Source: a virus. From it: a DNA stretch of 27,728 nucleotides. The position numbers and the translations under genes are program-made. Location: positions 1-27,728 of IMG/VR virus record IMGVR_UViG_3300047300_000425. One strand, given 5' to 3'. This document shows positions 2,126-27,633 of this stretch, one piece after another. Below the pieces are notes generated by a model. The model made no database searches, had not been told where the DNA came from, and saw only the letters and a program-made list of their open reading frames with translations. Position 1 is the stretch's first letter; every line of letters starts with the position of its first letter.

Positions 2126-2198
2126 ACTGCGGCACTGGCTGTGGCTGAACTTTGGTTACGACATATACGATTGGGAACCTGATGACATCCGTTTCTAA
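2115..2198 (+). CDS. possible 27-aa peptide
   Basis: A short ORF (MPPELRHWLWLNFGYDIYDW then EPDDIRF) overlaps the end of the preceding gene by 11 bp and the start of the next by 17 bp. It is aromatic-rich. The nested arrangement is in keeping with the rest of the array, but nothing except its context supports it. Confidence 0.3.
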   Translation: MPPELRHWLWLNFGYDIYDWEPDDIRF

Positions 2199-2388
2199 GA
2201 CCTTTGGAAGACCTCCGACCTATCCGCTAGGCCCTATGGCTGTCGGCGATCAAGTCACCCTGCCAGCGCCCACCAGCGCCGACATCAAGCGCATCTGCCG
2301 CGCGGTGAGCAGCTACGGCCAGCGCCACGACCGCAGCTATATGTGCCGCACACGCGATGGTGTGATGACCATCACCCGGCGCAGATAA
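2182..2388 (+). CDS. hypothetical early protein, 68 aa
   Basis: The start is taken as MTSVSKTFGRPPTY; an internal Met (MAVGDQVTLP, ATG at 2236) is an alternative and begins a cleaner domain-like sequence. The product is basic, with ADIKRICRAVSSYGQ and a C-terminus TITRRR. It is the last small gene before the control region at 2389-2551. No family recognised. Confidence 0.5.
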   Translation: MTSVSKTFGRPPTYPLGPMAVGDQVTLPAPTSADIKRICRAVSSYGQRHDRSYMCRTRDGVMTITRRR

Positions 2389-5274: not shown

Positions 5275-7236
5275 TCACTTGCCATAGCGTGTCATCGTGG
5301 CGACTTCCGCGTTCAGCGGCAACCCGTAGGCCCATGCTGGCGGCGTCGTCATTACCTTGAGCAGCTTCGCAGCCGCTGCTTCGGGGTCGGCAGTCTCCAG
5401 CACAATCTCGTCATGCACATGAAGAACCACGTCCAACCCCTCTTCCTCTAGCTGCCACAGCGAATGCCGCAGCAGGTCGTTTGCTACTGCCTGCGTGATG
5501 TTCTCACAGGCTAGGCCCCGCCACAGGCGACCACGCGGCCATTCGCTTGCGTCAGCCGCCGGCTTCCATGAAGCCTTGGCGTAGGTGATGTTCCCCTCTT
5601 CATCGAAGCGGGCGAAAGGATAGCATAACACACGCCCCGAAGGCAGGACATACCAGAGATGCTGCTTGTCGAATAAATAGGCCACACGCCCAGCGGAAAA
5701 CTCCGTGCCGGGGTTGCGCATGGCAGCGGTATAGGCGCGCTCCAGTGCGTCCCAGTAGACCGGCGCCCACGGGTTCGCGCGGCGCCAGCCATCGACCATC
5801 TTGCGGCTGTCGCTCTCCGGCAGGATGACGTTGTAGATGCGGCCCATCGCGGCGAAGGCGCCGATCCCGCCCGCAAAGCCGCAAGCCAGTTCCTGCACCT
5901 TACCGATCTGGCGCTGGTCCTTATCGACTTCGTCGTAGGCGACGCGGAAGGTCGCAGCAGCGTTGTGCTTGTAGACGTCCTCGCCGCGCTCGAAGATGCC
6001 CAGCTTGGCTGCACCGCTGTTGGTGTTCGACGCCCACGGCGTGACGCGCGCCTCAATCGCGGCCCAGTCGGCCACGACCAGATGCTTGTCCTTGTCGGCC
6101 ATCAGCGCCGGGCGCAGCATCCCCTTGAGGACGTCGGTCACGCGCTTGCCGTGCTTGGGGACGATCTGATGCCCGCGCACCATCGCGGTGCGGACTAGTG
6201 CCGGGTCTGCGGCACACTTTCGGGGGAAGTTATGAACCTGAAGCCCATATGATGAAGCACGGCCAGTAGCGCTTCCTCCTGCAAATACGAACGCGCCTCT
6301 AACGCGGCTATCCTCCTCGTCAGCAAGCGCTGCGGCACGACTAAACTTCGCAACGGACGAGGCCCAGAGATCATCCGCGCACTGGATAACTTCCGCCACT
6401 TCAGCCGGGACTTCATCGGCATTCCCCTCCGCCAGCGCCAGCAGATTGGCGCGCACGTTCTTGTCGATGGATAGCTTGGCCTCGCCGTCCTTGTAAACGG
6501 TCGCCAGCTTCAACGCTTCCGGGCCGACCCGCTCCAAGACCCACTCGCGCATTTTCGGGCTGCGGACCGACGTGACCACGCCTTCAGTAACCTCTCGGAC
6601 GATCTCTTGTATCTCGACAGCTTCCGCCTCTGCGTAACGCACAGCCGCCAAAGCCAGAGGTTTATCAAGCAGGACACCACGGTCGTTGATACGCTCATTA
6701 ACGTGATAGTCGCGCAGTTCATCGGCCGACAACTCCCGCTGCGCCTGACTGATCGCCCGCATAGCACGGACGTCCTGTTCGCAGTAGCGGATCATTTCGT
6801 CCATCAGGTCGGCATCCGCGCGGAACGTGCCGTCCGCCTGCGGGATCGACAGCAGCCGGATAAGCTGCGCGCCGCGATGGTCTTTCTTCATCGACGCACC
6901 AGAGAACCGCCCGACATCCTCAAGGCTGCCCGGCGCGCAGTTGGCGCGGGCTTGTGCTGCGGTGCAATAGAACTGCTCAAGGTCGAAATTGACTTGCAGG
7001 ACATACCAAAAGATCAGGCGCTCGAACGCCGCGTTGTGCGCCCGCACCTGACCTTTGTGATTAGCGACGGCTTGCGGGAAAGGCTGACCGGGCAGCCACG
7101 TCCGCACCTCTTCGTCGTCGAAGGCGTAGGACATGCACAGCACCTCGGTGCTTAGGTCCATCGCGTAGTTGTAGACGCCGCGTTCGGGCAGATTGCACCG
7201 GCTGCGCGTCTCGAAGTCACACCAAAGAATTGCCAC
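5275..7236 (-). CDS. family A DNA polymerase with 3'-5' exonuclease domain
   Basis: The 653-aa protein is the phage replicative polymerase. Exonuclease motifs are visible: DFET (D7, E9), HNAAFE (67-72) and YCEQD (Y151, D155). The polymerase motifs follow: motif A VVADWAAIEAR (D390, E395), motif B RQIGKVQELACGFAGG (442-457, with R442 and K446) and motif C LHVHDEIVLE (H608, D609, E610). There is no 5'-3' exonuclease domain, as in other phage polymerases. Motif A has DWAAIE where DYSQIE is usual, but the catalytic acids are kept. The gene lies between the ssDNA-binding candidate and the primase-helicase; its stop lies 10 bp before the primase start, so the pair is probably cotranslated. Confidence 0.95.
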   Translation of the reverse strand: MAILWCDFETRSRCNLPERGVYNYAMDLSTEVLCMSYAFDDEEVRTWLPGQPFPQAVANHKGQVRAHNAAFERLIFWYVLQVNFDLEQFYCTAAQARANCAPGSLEDVGRFSGASMKKDHRGAQLIRLLSIPQADGTFRADADLMDEMIRYCEQDVRAMRAISQAQRELSADELRDYHVNERINDRGVLLDKPLALAAVRYAEAEAVEIQEIVREVTEGVVTSVRSPKMREWVLERVGPEALKLATVYKDGEAKLSIDKNVRANLLALAEGNADEVPAEVAEVIQCADDLWASSVAKFSRAAALADEEDSRVRGAFVFAGGSATGRASSYGLQVHNFPRKCAADPALVRTAMVRGHQIVPKHGKRVTDVLKGMLRPALMADKDKHLVVADWAAIEARVTPWASNTNSGAAKLGIFERGEDVYKHNAAATFRVAYDEVDKDQRQIGKVQELACGFAGGIGAFAAMGRIYNVILPESDSRKMVDGWRRANPWAPVYWDALERAYTAAMRNPGTEFSAGRVAYLFDKQHLWYVLPSGRVLCYPFARFDEEGNITYAKASWKPAADASEWPRGRLWRGLACENITQAVANDLLRHSLWQLEEEGLDVVLHVHDEIVLETADPEAAAAKLLKVMTTPPAWAYGLPLNAEVATMTRYGK

Positions 7237-25150: not shown

Positions 25151-25172
25151 GCCCCCGACCGAAGCCGGGGGC
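25151..25172 (-). other. hairpin with UUCG tetraloop after the coat gene
   Basis: On the minus strand, GCCCCCGGC (25172-25164) pairs with GTCGGGGGC (25159-25151), including one G-U, around the loop TTCG. This C(UUCG)G loop is unusually stable in RNA. The downstream sequence (ACTTCTAGTT) is not a T run. On the plus strand the wobble becomes an A-C mismatch, which suggests the structure is maintained for the minus-strand RNA. Confidence 0.65.
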
Positions 25173-25181
25173 GGTATCAGA

Positions 25182-26390
25182 TTAACCCCAGAGGCGGGTA
25201 GCCATCTGCGGACGGATCGTGCTGTAGCCGTACAGAACGTCGATACGGCAAGGCATACGGTCGTTGTTGATGTCGTACTGACGGACAACGCGGAGCGAGA
25301 TGCCGTTGTGGACCTGACGCGAGGCCATATCCACGCCGTTCGGCATGAGAAGGTCGGCCGTTGCGAAGGTAATCGCGTCCTTGTGGTAGACGAGGTTCTG
25401 CGGGTACTGCGTCGAAGCAGCGCCGACGAACACGACAGCCTTGCTGTTGCCCGGCAGGCTATCGACGGTAGCAAGCGCATGGCTGGCCGAGTAGATCGGG
25501 GCCACGGTGATGCTGCCAGCGCCCGAACCGTTCAGCGTTACGTCAGCCAGAGCGACGAACTGGAACAGCGAACCGGTGCTTTCGCGGGTCTGCGGGTTGA
25601 CCATGTAGCAGTCAGCCACGGTGAACACGTCGCCAGCCTTGATGGTGCCGCTTGCACCAGCACCGGTGATGGTGATGGTGGTGGCGCCTTCCGAGGTGAC
25701 AGCGGCCGAGGTGGTGCCGCCGGTTGCGGTACGCGAACCGGTGGTGAACTGCTTGATCGACTGCGACATGTTGATTTCTTCGAAACCAAGCACGCCGGTG
25801 CCCATCAAGCCGTTCTTAAACTGACGGCTGATGGTGTCGGTCGGGTTGAACAGCCCCTTCAGACCTTCGACGAGGCCAGCGTTGGCAGCCGGGTTAACGG
25901 TTGCGTAGCGCGGCGACATCACGGCGGCGTTTTCGTTCAGCTTTTGCTGGGCAGCAAGCAGAACGGCCGAGGTGCCCGGCGTGGTGCCCGGAGTACCGAC
26001 CGAGTTGCCGATGGTCTTGAACGCGTTGGCGACGTCAGCGTCGATGCTGGCGGCAAGCTGCGAGATACGCGGCTTGAGGACGCGCTCGGCGAAGTCGTCA
26101 AGCTGCATGCTCAGTTCGGCGGTGGTGAAGTTCACACCGATATGCTTCTGCGACGAAACCGACAGCGTGGTGTACTGTTCGTTGTCGTCCTGCACCTGAA
26201 GGGCAGCACCATCGGTCACCAGAGCGCGGTCCGGCAGGCGGATGCGCAGGGTCGAGCCGATCTTGGCGCCTTCAACGGCGAAGCTGTCGTCGTACTGACG
26301 GTTGACGTTGCGGGTCAGAACAAGATTATTCTCAAGGATTTCGAGGGCCTTGCGAGTAATCATGTCGATAGTAAGAATGCTATTGGACAT
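25182..26390 (-). CDS. major capsid protein, P22 coat family
   Basis: The 402-aa protein resembles the P22 gp5 coat family: MSNSILTIDMITRKALEILENN then LVLTRNVNRQYDDSFA, KIGSTLRIRLPDRALVTDG (about 43-61), HIGVNFTTAELSMQLDDFAERVLKPRISQLA and the later GLVEGLKGLFNPTDTISRQ and SRQVHNGISLRVVRQYDINND. The central part (about 185-330) would carry the inserted domain. It would form the capsid shell with the scaffold encoded just upstream. The length is close to P22 coat (430). GGGA lies about 10 nt before the ATG, a modest site for so abundant a product. Confidence 0.92.
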   Translation of the reverse strand: MSNSILTIDMITRKALEILENNLVLTRNVNRQYDDSFAVEGAKIGSTLRIRLPDRALVTDGAALQVQDDNEQYTTLSVSSQKHIGVNFTTAELSMQLDDFAERVLKPRISQLAASIDADVANAFKTIGNSVGTPGTTPGTSAVLLAAQQKLNENAAVMSPRYATVNPAANAGLVEGLKGLFNPTDTISRQFKNGLMGTGVLGFEEINMSQSIKQFTTGSRTATGGTTSAAVTSEGATTITITGAGASGTIKAGDVFTVADCYMVNPQTRESTGSLFQFVALADVTLNGSGAGSITVAPIYSASHALATVDSLPGNSKAVVFVGAASTQYPQNLVYHKDAITFATADLLMPNGVDMASRQVHNGISLRVVRQYDINNDRMPCRIDVLYGYSTIRPQMATRLWG

Positions 26391-26405: not shown

Positions 26406-27197
26406 TCAGCGGTTGCGTAGTGCCTCGTACTTCTTGATCTGCCGCTGCCGTTCCGCTTCGATCCATTCCGACGTAGACATGTTTTTCACGCTGCGCGGGT
26501 CTGTAGTATCAAATGCGGGCGTTCCAGAGGAACGGGCAGTAACAGGTGCAATCGGTGCCGGGGCGGTCGAAGTTCTTTTAACCGGCGGATTTGAGGACAT
26601 TGCTGCCTCAATCTTTCCGATTTCTTTTGCCTGCAAGATCGGGCTTAAACGCGCGATGCGGTCCGCTTCCTTCGGATTTGAACCCAGATAGTACAATACG
26701 TCTGGGCCTATGTCCGAGGCTTGGATGCTTTGCGCCATCACTTCCGTAACGGGAAGGTTCGGGTTGTAGGCGACTTGGTCGAAGTCGTCGTACTTATCCC
26801 GCGCCTGCTCTTCACGGTCGTGATAGGAATTGAGCAATTCGGCTTGCTGTCGGGCGGCATCGCGCCGTGCCAGCAGTTCTTCCGCCTTACGTTCGGCCAA
26901 AGCCTCTGCGTAATCTTCGTAAGAACTAAACTGCTCCGGATACAGGTCAGGGGCGGCATCTGCTGCCTGACGGGCCTGTGCTTCCGCAGCCTTTTGAGCC
27001 TGCTCACGTTCCCATTTACGCTGTTCTCTTGCGAGGCGCTTGCCGACAATGGCGTCAAGTTCTTCTTGTGTGAAGGTCTTGGACGCTTCAGGTTCAGCAG
27101 GCGTTTCCGGCGTCGTGTTTTCTTCAGGCTGGATTGCTGCCGTGGCTTCCAGTTCTGGCGCGGAGGCATCCGCTTCAATAGGGACTTCAGCGTCCAT
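26406..27197 (-). CDS. scaffolding protein
   Basis: The 263-aa protein is acidic at the N-terminus (DAEVPIEADASAPELEATAA) and highly helical in the centre (GKRLAREQRKWEREQAQKAAEAQ, EDYAEALAERKAEELL). It has a Pro/Thr linker near 205-230 and ends in a basic helix (EWIEAERQRQIKKYEALRNR), as expected for a scaffold whose C-terminal helix binds coat. It directly precedes the coat gene, as gene 8 does in P22. GAGGAG lies 7 nt before the ATG. It would leave or be degraded before DNA packaging. It is the first gene after the operator-bearing promoter. Confidence 0.85.
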   Translation of the reverse strand: MDAEVPIEADASAPELEATAAIQPEENTTPETPAEPEASKTFTQEELDAIVGKRLAREQRKWEREQAQKAAEAQARQAADAAPDLYPEQFSSYEDYAEALAERKAEELLARRDAARQQAELLNSYHDREEQARDKYDDFDQVAYNPNLPVTEVMAQSIQASDIGPDVLYYLGSNPKEADRIARLSPILQAKEIGKIEAAMSSNPPVKRTSTAPAPIAPVTARSSGTPAFDTTDPRSVKNMSTSEWIEAERQRQIKKYEALRNR

Positions 27198-27244
27198 GTC
27201 TAACTCCTCAGAGTTCCCGGTGAACCTCGCCGGTACGGTTGTAG

Positions 27245-27276
27245 GTCAAATTACAACAGATGTTGTAGTTTGACAA
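27245..27276 (-). promoter_or_regulatory. late promoter overlapped by a 30-bp operator-like dyad
   Basis: On the minus strand TTGTCA (27276-27271) and TAATTT (27253-27248) are 17 bp apart. Positions 27245-27258 (GTCAAATTACAACA) and 27261-27274 (TGTTGTAGTTTGAC) are inverted repeats of 14 bp with one mismatch around a 2-bp centre, spanning the promoter from -35 to -10. There is no T run after it, so it is not an intrinsic terminator. A bound regulator would block polymerase. It lies 48 bp before the scaffold ATG. Confidence 0.6.
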
Positions 27277-27285
27277 TATCTAGCC

Positions 27286-27633
27286 CTAAGCCTTGACAAG
27301 CGCCCATGCGCAAGCGGCTTCGTCCCAATCGTATGATTTGCCATCAGCAGGGCGCGGAACTGGCGCGCTCCAAAGGCAAGTATCTTCGTCCAGTGTCCAT
27401 GACGGAAACGGCTGGGGCGGAATAAAGGCATCACGGTCCACGTCGTAGGTGTAGCCGATGCCAGCAAAATTCTTGCGCAACGGGCGTCCTTCAGGATGCT
27501 GACCGCCAAACGTGTTGTAAGATGTCTGGACGAACAGCGCAGGATCGCCGAAAAGGCCGGTGTCGATGACATCCTGTTCAATGACCAGCACTTCAGTGAC
27601 GATGCCGTCTTCGACTTTAGCAAAGTGGCTCAT
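27286..27633 (-). CDS. small phage structural protein, 115 aa
   Basis: The product has MSHFAKVEDGIVTEVLVIEQD at the N-terminus, then FVQTSYNTFGGQHPEGRPLR, GIGYTYDVDRDAFIPPQPFPSW and a C-terminus DGKSYDWDEAACAWALVKA. Proteins with the FIPPxPxxSW and YxWDEAxxxW pattern are recurrent among tail-fibre genes of marine and other phages; function unproven. The start overlaps the stop of the upstream fibre-like gene as ATGA. It lies between the presumed portal side and the scaffold promoter. Confidence 0.75.
   Translation of the reverse strand: MSHFAKVEDGIVTEVLVIEQDVIDTGLFGDPALFVQTSYNTFGGQHPEGRPLRKNFAGIGYTYDVDRDAFIPPQPFPSWTLDEDTCLWSAPVPRPADGKSYDWDEAACAWALVKA

Follow-up and report, generated by a model that had tools for sequence, protein, structure and literature searches.

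Promoters of the sigma-70 type overlapped by palindromic operators form a textbook class. The scaffolding protein of phage P22 is autoregulated, through post-transcriptional feedback on scaffold synthesis. In phages T4, T2 and RB69, gene 32 has an autoregulatory mRNA pseudoknot 67 nt upstream and an unstructured, A+U-rich ribosome site (PMC3014915). The locus described here shares with the operator-controlled promoters an inverted repeat lying over the –35 to –10 region, and with P22 its setting, the scaffold gene of a phage with a P22-type coat. The window, that is, the whole stretch of DNA analysed, is an entire IMG/VR virus record of 27,728 bases. Complete-looking relatives measure ~37–39 kb, and the window seems to be part of a longer podovirus genome that encodes a P22-type coat. 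Its nearest annotated phages are DSL-LC05 and isolate ctNMl277.

The dyad and the putative scaffold/coat promoter

The features at and around the dyad are as follows.

27245–27274, no strand assigned: inverted repeat (dyad) with 14-bp arms, one mismatch and a 2-nt centre (dyad search, covariation in relatives, shuffle estimate)
27271–27276, minus strand: –35-like hexamer TTGTCA of the putative scaffold/coat promoter (sequence; place conserved in relatives)
27248–27253, minus strand: –10-like hexamer TAATTT, 17 nt past the –35 (sequence; TAnnnT at the same place in relatives)
27239–27243, minus strand: predicted transcript start, ~7 nt past the –10 (from promoter geometry)
26406–27197, minus strand: gene of the head scaffolding protein, 263 aa (profile match to phrog_8865, head scaffolding protein, E 8.8e-30; blastn match to a gene annotated as scaffolding)
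25182–26390, minus strand: P22-like major coat protein gene (homology searches)
27286–27633, minus strand: gene upstream of the dyad, phrog_7759, no assigned function (profile match; the sequence before the slot differs among relatives)

A sequence-only reading of this DNA had described a dyad with 14-bp arms and one mismatch filling the –35 to –10 region of a scaffold/coat promoter. The dyad search confirmed the repeat, with arms at 27245–27258 and 27261–27274 that are 14 nt each, 93% complementary and 2 nt apart. On the minus strand it spans the third base of the –35 TTGTCA, the 17-nt spacer, all of the –10 TAATTT and 3 nt more; it does overlie the promoter, but its arms overlap the hexamers and are not confined between them. 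This was the sole dyad in the window with 14-nt arms, at most one mismatch and a centre of 0–8 nt. As a dyad of equal grade occurred somewhere in 10 of 200 dinucleotide-shuffled windows, its mere existence is only mildly unusual, and its significance comes from its place and its conservation. The predicted fold energy was –12 kcal/mol on the coding strand versus –17.2 kcal/mol on the other strand, which the mismatch favours. No further operator copies at ≤3 mismatches were found in the window, itself a fragment, and no second site at ≤7 mismatches of 30 in any of the 11 dyad-bearing records searched.

Relatives were collected by scaffold/coat searches and pattern scans, which gave at least several hundred loci, 74 distinct scaffold starts among them being read by eye. 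The window hexamers match the consensus at 5/6 positions (–35) and 3/6 positions (–10, TATAAT), 8 of 12 letters together (p 0.02 in the cluster scan), and a consensus scan demanding ≥4/6 per hexamer did not list the window promoter. Support for a promoter at this site comes from the relatives and not from the window copy alone. For the cluster test we took the 45 nt upstream of the leader in one representative per 70%-identity cluster, giving 72 clusters in which some chance matches inside genes were counted, and the –10 was allowed to end only 3–15 nt before CGTAC. Loci unique to a pattern scan fixing TTGNCA and TANNNT were excluded from the 72 clusters and included in the dyad covariation. 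Among the listed loci, a promoter score reached by ≤5% of 100 shuffles was found in 30 of 72 clusters (3.6 expected), a hairpin at p ≤ 0.05 in 31 (3.6 expected), and both together in 15. These 30 clusters have sigma-70-type hexamers 16–18 nt apart at a conserved place, the window copy being a weak one. The –10 ended 3–13 nt before CGTAC in all 30, so the mRNA should begin within a few nt of P1, the 5′ strand of pseudoknot helix 1 in the leader RNA described below.

Reading by eye agreed with the scan: a TTGNNN-17-TANNNT pair often stood directly before the leader among the 74 distinct scaffold starts listed. Thalassomonas phage BA3 (GTGACA-17-TATTAT) and Shewanella phage X14 (GTGACT-17-TATCAT) have a like promoter geometry (by eye), and L077 has a very good promoter, TTGACA-17-TATATT, without any dyad. 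The recurrence at the same place in relatives supports the proposal that the scaffold/coat genes have a promoter here; one resembling the sigma-70 type very probably lies at the dyad site and serves the scaffold/coat operon on the minus strand.

The sequence preceding the slot changes even among close relatives, and the block of dyad, promoter and leader stays with the scaffold gene. Between the stop codon of the upstream gene and the dyad, window positions 27275–27285 read GGCTAGATATT, which resembles how another upstream gene ends in relatives (GGGCCTAGATATTG in L047); this stretch is possibly the scar of a gene swap. At the other end of the two head genes, a GC-rich hairpin with a UUCG loop lies directly past the coat gene (25151–25172, minus strand). 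A hairpin of ≤ –8 kcal/mol followed the coat gene in 65 of 71 distinct sequences (among the matches listed, counted without a shuffle control), and the P22 record has a stem-loop annotated at the same place past its coat gene, at 6102–6119. In L420 (MW202557), the place of the scaffold homologue (2075–2998) is annotated as an opposite-strand hypothetical ORF.

The dyad lay over the promoter, upstream of the scaffold gene, in one part of the tree only among the relatives listed. Many relatives with the same scaffold gene had a promoter without a dyad (the TTGCACACAG group) or no intergenic region. In some, the upstream reading frame reached to within a few nt of the leader, and neither promoter nor dyad was visible; other lineages had unrelated hairpins in the same slot, some of which are GC-rich and lack the promoter. 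Where the dyad was present, its pairing was kept. In the 69 distinct 30-mers from the listed loci, 72.6% of cells were paired compared to 61.8% after shuffling and 27.6–40.9% after sliding by 1–3 columns. Cells with changes on both sides of a pair numbered 114 versus 48.8 shuffled, and the covariation score was 0.314 versus 0.173 shuffled; neither value was reached in 500 shuffles. The number of pairs with changes on both sides was 10 of 14 versus 8.6 shuffled, and 81 of 500 shuffles reached 10. The fixed letters of the promoter limit several dyad pairs, and the free pairs 2-29, 5-26, 6-25, 7-24 and 12-19 showed the clearest exchange.

The letters change while the pairing is kept, and the dyad is absent or replaced in many relatives in which the scaffold gene is conserved; this indicates that it is a selected inverted repeat and not a fixed operator. 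It is a real, selected part of the control region of the head operon. A search for the same dyad elsewhere, suggested in the sequence-only reading, thus found a single copy in the window and in each of the 11 records, and recurrence with changed letters in one clade of relatives. Conservation, taken there as decisive, held for the pairing within that clade and failed in many other relatives that keep the scaffold gene.

Selection for pairing in the mRNA would be expected to leave more G-U than A-C cells on the coding strand. On the free pairs there were 34 G-U versus 18 A-C cells, 14 of the 34 coming from one pair, and after clustering, with promoter-fixed pairs included, ~14 versus 8, an excess that is weak only. 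These data do not separate a DNA operator from an mRNA stem-loop. Pairing as such is favored by the different arms found beside near-identical candidate proteins (described below), by the unrelated hairpins that other lineages have in the slot, and by the hairpin that also follows the coat gene, and by a small margin we tentatively favor the stem-loop.

The leader RNA of the scaffold gene

Just downstream of the dyad, a 46-nt leader begins at the predicted transcript start and comprises an H-type pseudoknot followed by a Shine-Dalgarno (SD) hairpin.

27195–27240, minus strand: predicted scaffold-gene leader RNA with pseudoknot, SD hairpin and start codon (match to model R1, 56.2 bits, E 2.3e-9; the window copy is among the 97 rows from which R1 was built)
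27236–27238, minus strand: P1 (CCG), 5′ strand of pseudoknot helix 1 (alignment, knot tests)
27225–27227, minus strand: P1′ (AGG), 3′ strand of pseudoknot helix 1, with two of the three pairs formed here (alignment, knot tests)
27217–27233, minus strand: S2 hairpin, CCGGCG / CACCGG, around P1′ and a 2-nt loop, its fifth pair being C-A (leader alignment)
27202–27215, minus strand: H2 hairpin, AACTC-TGAG-GAGTT, with the Shine-Dalgarno sequence (leader folds)

Among the 74 distinct starts listed, a leader beginning AACCGTAC or close variants nearly always preceded the scaffold gene when read by eye. In the 97-leader alignment the order is P1 (3 nt), UA, S2, P1′, ~2 nt and S2′, with S2 of 6 bp. 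The fold is that of an H-type pseudoknot whose first loop, of 2 nt, spans a second helix of 6 bp. This alignment (A1) holds 97 of 101 references; L231, L228, L209 and one of the two L286 places were dropped by hand. The patterns that collected the leaders prescribe TAC together with some letters of S2, which in part accounts for the unvarying UA loop; ctNMl277, ctkAd229 and ctTUS972 apparently have other L1 letters.

For S2 and the pseudoknot in the 97 leaders listed, pairing was 93.0% compared to 86.7% shuffled and 26–43% slid, double-change cells numbered 60 versus 14.5 shuffled, and covariation was 0.243 versus 0.117 shuffled. The number of pair types, 10 versus 9.3 shuffled, was not higher, being reached by 213 of 500 shuffles. 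The full knot was present in 33 of 47 distinct cores from the listed loci, which include the leaders of six named phages, against a shuffled mean of 19.3 and a maximum of 26 in 2000 shuffles. In two further scans both P1 and P1′ were left free and only TA and S2 were fixed, which gave at least 234 places. All three knot pairs formed in 123 of the 131 places that precede a scaffold gene (profile E ≤ 1e-3) and in 27 of 31 distinct P1–loop combinations, with at least 13 different complementary letter sets, one of which has a G-U pair, all among the matches listed. At the other places all three pairs formed in 17 of 103 (again among the matches listed), and 15 of these 17 read like leaders whose gene is unrecognised or cut. 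One of the two patterns was designed not to admit G as the second loop base, so that the common CGG and AGG types are missing from its matches.

The named phages illustrate the exchange. P1/P1′ is CCG/CGG in Thalassomonas phage BA3, AGC/GCT in Vibrio phage VvAW1, CTG/CAG in DSL-LC05, and GGC/GCC in Shewanella phage X14, Vibrio phage 1.183.O and FGH. The window leader is weaker, with two of three knot pairs (CCG/AGG) and one C-A in S2, like many of its nearest leaders. The leader thus contains two helices that interleave, each showing compensatory changes, and the alignments indicate that the pseudoknot is almost certainly real as a structure.

Past the knot, a second hairpin with many different sequences holds the ribosome-binding site. 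In the minimum-energy fold of the leader 3′ half, the Shine-Dalgarno sequence was at least half paired in only 60 of the 97 leaders listed, and in 50 of 97 this half gave a more stable fold than ≥95 of its 100 mononucleotide shuffles. The predicted SD hairpin is less secure than the pseudoknot. An in-frame stop precedes the start codon in 80 of the 97 leaders listed, which argues that most leaders are not coding, and their lengths fall in all three phases.

The leader is a more general and better supported element than the dyad. Model R1, built from the 97 leaders and hence from many of the same loci later scanned, matched 16 of 16 records picked for holding the leader and 43 of 45 further records, including 17 of the 19 that had entered by scaffold or coat homology. 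The model matched once per record; only G001 and G049 had a second match, the two lying near opposite ends of the contig. Carriers of the leader include Thalassomonas phage BA3, Shewanella phage X14 and Vibrio phages, and it also occurred with scaffold/coat homologues in two bacterial assemblies, an Oxalobacteraceae isolate AM_0228 contig (L474) and [Pseudomonas] hibiscicola ATCC 19867 (L471), the latter looking like a prophage. By eye, L474 has a perfect dyad with 9-bp arms of other sequence over the –10, and in L471 the leader is preceded by a terminator-like hairpin with a U tail. These two were the only ones with scaffold and coat homologues among 52 stretches from the genome-collection pattern scan; the remaining stretches, many in Streptomyces and without these homologues, look like chance and were rejected.

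P22, examined directly, was rejected as a carrier: it has 13 nt between the portal and scaffold genes and no such leader. The gap ahead of the scaffold gene is 0–14 nt in P22, Rhodoferax phage P26218 and EBPR podovirus 1, too short for one. In Vibrio phages 1.211.A, 1.184.A and D478 (L425, L426 and L427) the annotated scaffold start lies inside the pseudoknot (ATGGCTACC; locus 1889, 1889 and 1886, respectively). This start looks misannotated, since the related 1.183.O and X14 genes start after the leader. Rfam 15 scans of the window and of six further loci did not match the leader, although short elements may slip the filters; they gave four weak matches elsewhere in the six loci. A motif named Proteo-phage-1 was compared with the leader through Rfam only. 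Among the titles listed by searches of the open-access literature, none suggested an earlier description of the leader.

A candidate partner and rival readings of the dyad

The sequence-only reading had suggested a small plus-strand protein as one possible binder of the dyad, and one such protein followed the dyad in its distribution.

2182–2388, plus strand: small basic protein, candidate dyad partner by co-occurrence only (presence comparison; weakly phrog_28399-like)

The comparison covered 61 long records of 25.7–53.6 kb, the window included, with the dyad state judged by eye from a TTG-anchored slot, which was not located in 3 of the 35 dyad-less records. This slot replaced an automatic score that takes the best of seven offsets and for that reason scored G017, G019, G026 and G027 as having the dyad. 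The protein was present in 20 of 26 records with the dyad (two copies, in G009 and G036, being cut by the contig end) compared to 2 of 35 without it (G017 and G037), and in 13 of 13 dyad records of ≥34 kb. It was absent from ten named phages. On a scaffold tree of 56 records, support values not considered, the protein and a good dyad were jointly missing in G006/7/8/53 and in G014/G052, the last two being ~33-kb records with poorer dyads that may be incomplete. Descent explains much of this co-occurrence, which is therefore confounded, and a membrane-like protein family was similarly distributed (10 of 10 dyad versus 0 of 4 other records in a comparison of 15 records with many spurious frames). 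The proposal of a small plus-strand binder thus gained a co-occurring candidate whose pattern is shared by another family. G003, G049 and G050 have near-identical small proteins yet different dyads, and each has a second, diverged copy close by; if the small protein is the regulator, operator sequence would not be conserved under the same regulator, subject to the presence of these second copies. The predicted fold is beta-alpha-beta-beta (mean pLDDT 81). A fold search found no PDB match at E ≤ 0.001 and three viral matches at E ≤ 0.001, one named for the DnaA C-terminal domain and two without stated function.

If the dyad is a DNA operator, a dimeric phage or host protein binds it and blocks or aids RNA polymerase, timing the head genes, and the 2182–2388 protein is the best candidate. 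The two-fold symmetry, running nearly to the centre, and the overlap with both the –35 and the –10 are those of a symmetric site. Dyads of different sequence overlap the promoter in other lineages (L260, and L474 by eye), and the co-occurrence of the small protein, its joint loss with good dyads on the scaffold tree and the DnaA-named fold match point in the same direction. Against this, each of the 11 records holds one site, the arm sequence is not conserved, near-identical proteins go with different dyads (with the reserve of the second copies), the beta-alpha-beta-beta fold lacks a PDB counterpart at E ≤ 0.001, another gene family has a similar presence pattern, and the G014/G052 losses may reflect incomplete records. 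We regard an operator as possible but rather doubtful. The earlier idea of a fixed operator for one regulator is not supported as stated: the arms change in step, the site is single, and in many relatives the promoter occurs with no dyad over it.

A second rival is a cruciform that extrudes in supercoiled DNA and modulates promoter opening. It would fit the pairing that is kept across the promoter core while the letters change, and the lack of a clear strand bias; AT-rich arms of 14 bp are short for extrusion in vivo, and we consider this quite improbable. About as unlikely, if slightly less so, is a functionless palindrome kept by descent in one clade as a by-product of the promoter. Such a by-product would fit the relatives that have the same promoter and no dyad (the TTGCACACAG group) and the equally good dyads in shuffled windows, but the cells changed on both sides far exceed the shuffled and slid controls, and decay by descent would break pairs, not restore them. 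The position 11 nt past the upstream stop codon and the stability of the hairpin could suggest an intrinsic terminator of the upstream gene. We rejected this as highly improbable: the GC-rich hairpin with a U run typical of such terminators was not found, with no U run past the stem on either strand, and a terminator scan did not list it. The mRNA stem-loop thus remains the reading that we tentatively favor.

A proposed control region and its closest counterparts

The explanation that we consider best overall, with about even confidence, is a compact control region made of promoter and leader RNA, with the dyad as a boundary stem-loop. The dyad site would be the upstream edge of this region of the scaffold/coat operon. 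The sigma-70-type promoter would start transcription within a few nt of the leader RNA, which would fold into the H-type pseudoknot and then the hairpin holding the Shine-Dalgarno sequence, so that scaffold synthesis, and hence head synthesis, would most likely be tuned at translation. In the dyad the base pairing itself appears to be selected. Transcripts that run on from the exchangeable gene upstream may fold it into a stem-loop, which would delimit the head-gene mRNA, and the promoter would share its 30 bp. The sequence-only reading had placed the whole head operon under one switch. As a dyad operator that switch is not supported as stated there; it would more credibly be the leader RNA just downstream, which that reading did not mention.

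By analogy with T4 gene 32 and the feedback in P22, the leader probably regulates scaffold synthesis at translation. Such a short pseudoknot leader, found before the scaffold genes of numerous phages, cultured ones among them, would count as a second and seemingly more common candidate, and how scaffold synthesis is matched to head assembly becomes directly testable in laboratory phages such as BA3 or X14. A bolder proposal, which we hold to be conceivable but on the unlikely side, is that of a new phage cis-regulatory RNA family. Here free scaffolding protein would bind the pseudoknot and SD hairpin at or near the mRNA 5′ end and stop its own translation, and in the dyad clade a small early protein acting on the overlapping promoter hairpin would form a second switch. 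The family would be shared by a large set of phages that have P22-type coats and are seen with betaproteobacterial and gammaproteobacterial hosts. If this is true, scaffold output would track procapsid assembly.

Compared with the promoters that have palindromic operators, the locus differs in that its arms vary yet stay complementary, each record searched has one site, and the regulator is only a candidate. P22 lacks the leader and has the 13-nt portal–scaffold gap instead, and feedback in the phages studied here is a proposal only. The slot dyad resembles the P22 stem-loop past the coat gene (6102–6119) as a boundary hairpin in a head operon; unlike that stem-loop, it is rich in A and T, precedes the scaffold gene and overlies the promoter. 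Compared by description with gene 32 of T4, T2 and RB69 (PMC3014915), the leader likewise places an H-type pseudoknot ahead of the start codon of a phage mRNA, and translational control is proposed here by analogy only. It differs from the gene 32 element in that the knot is directly followed by an SD hairpin and its helix 1 has 3 bp, and in that the gene is a head scaffold gene and not that of a DNA-binding protein.
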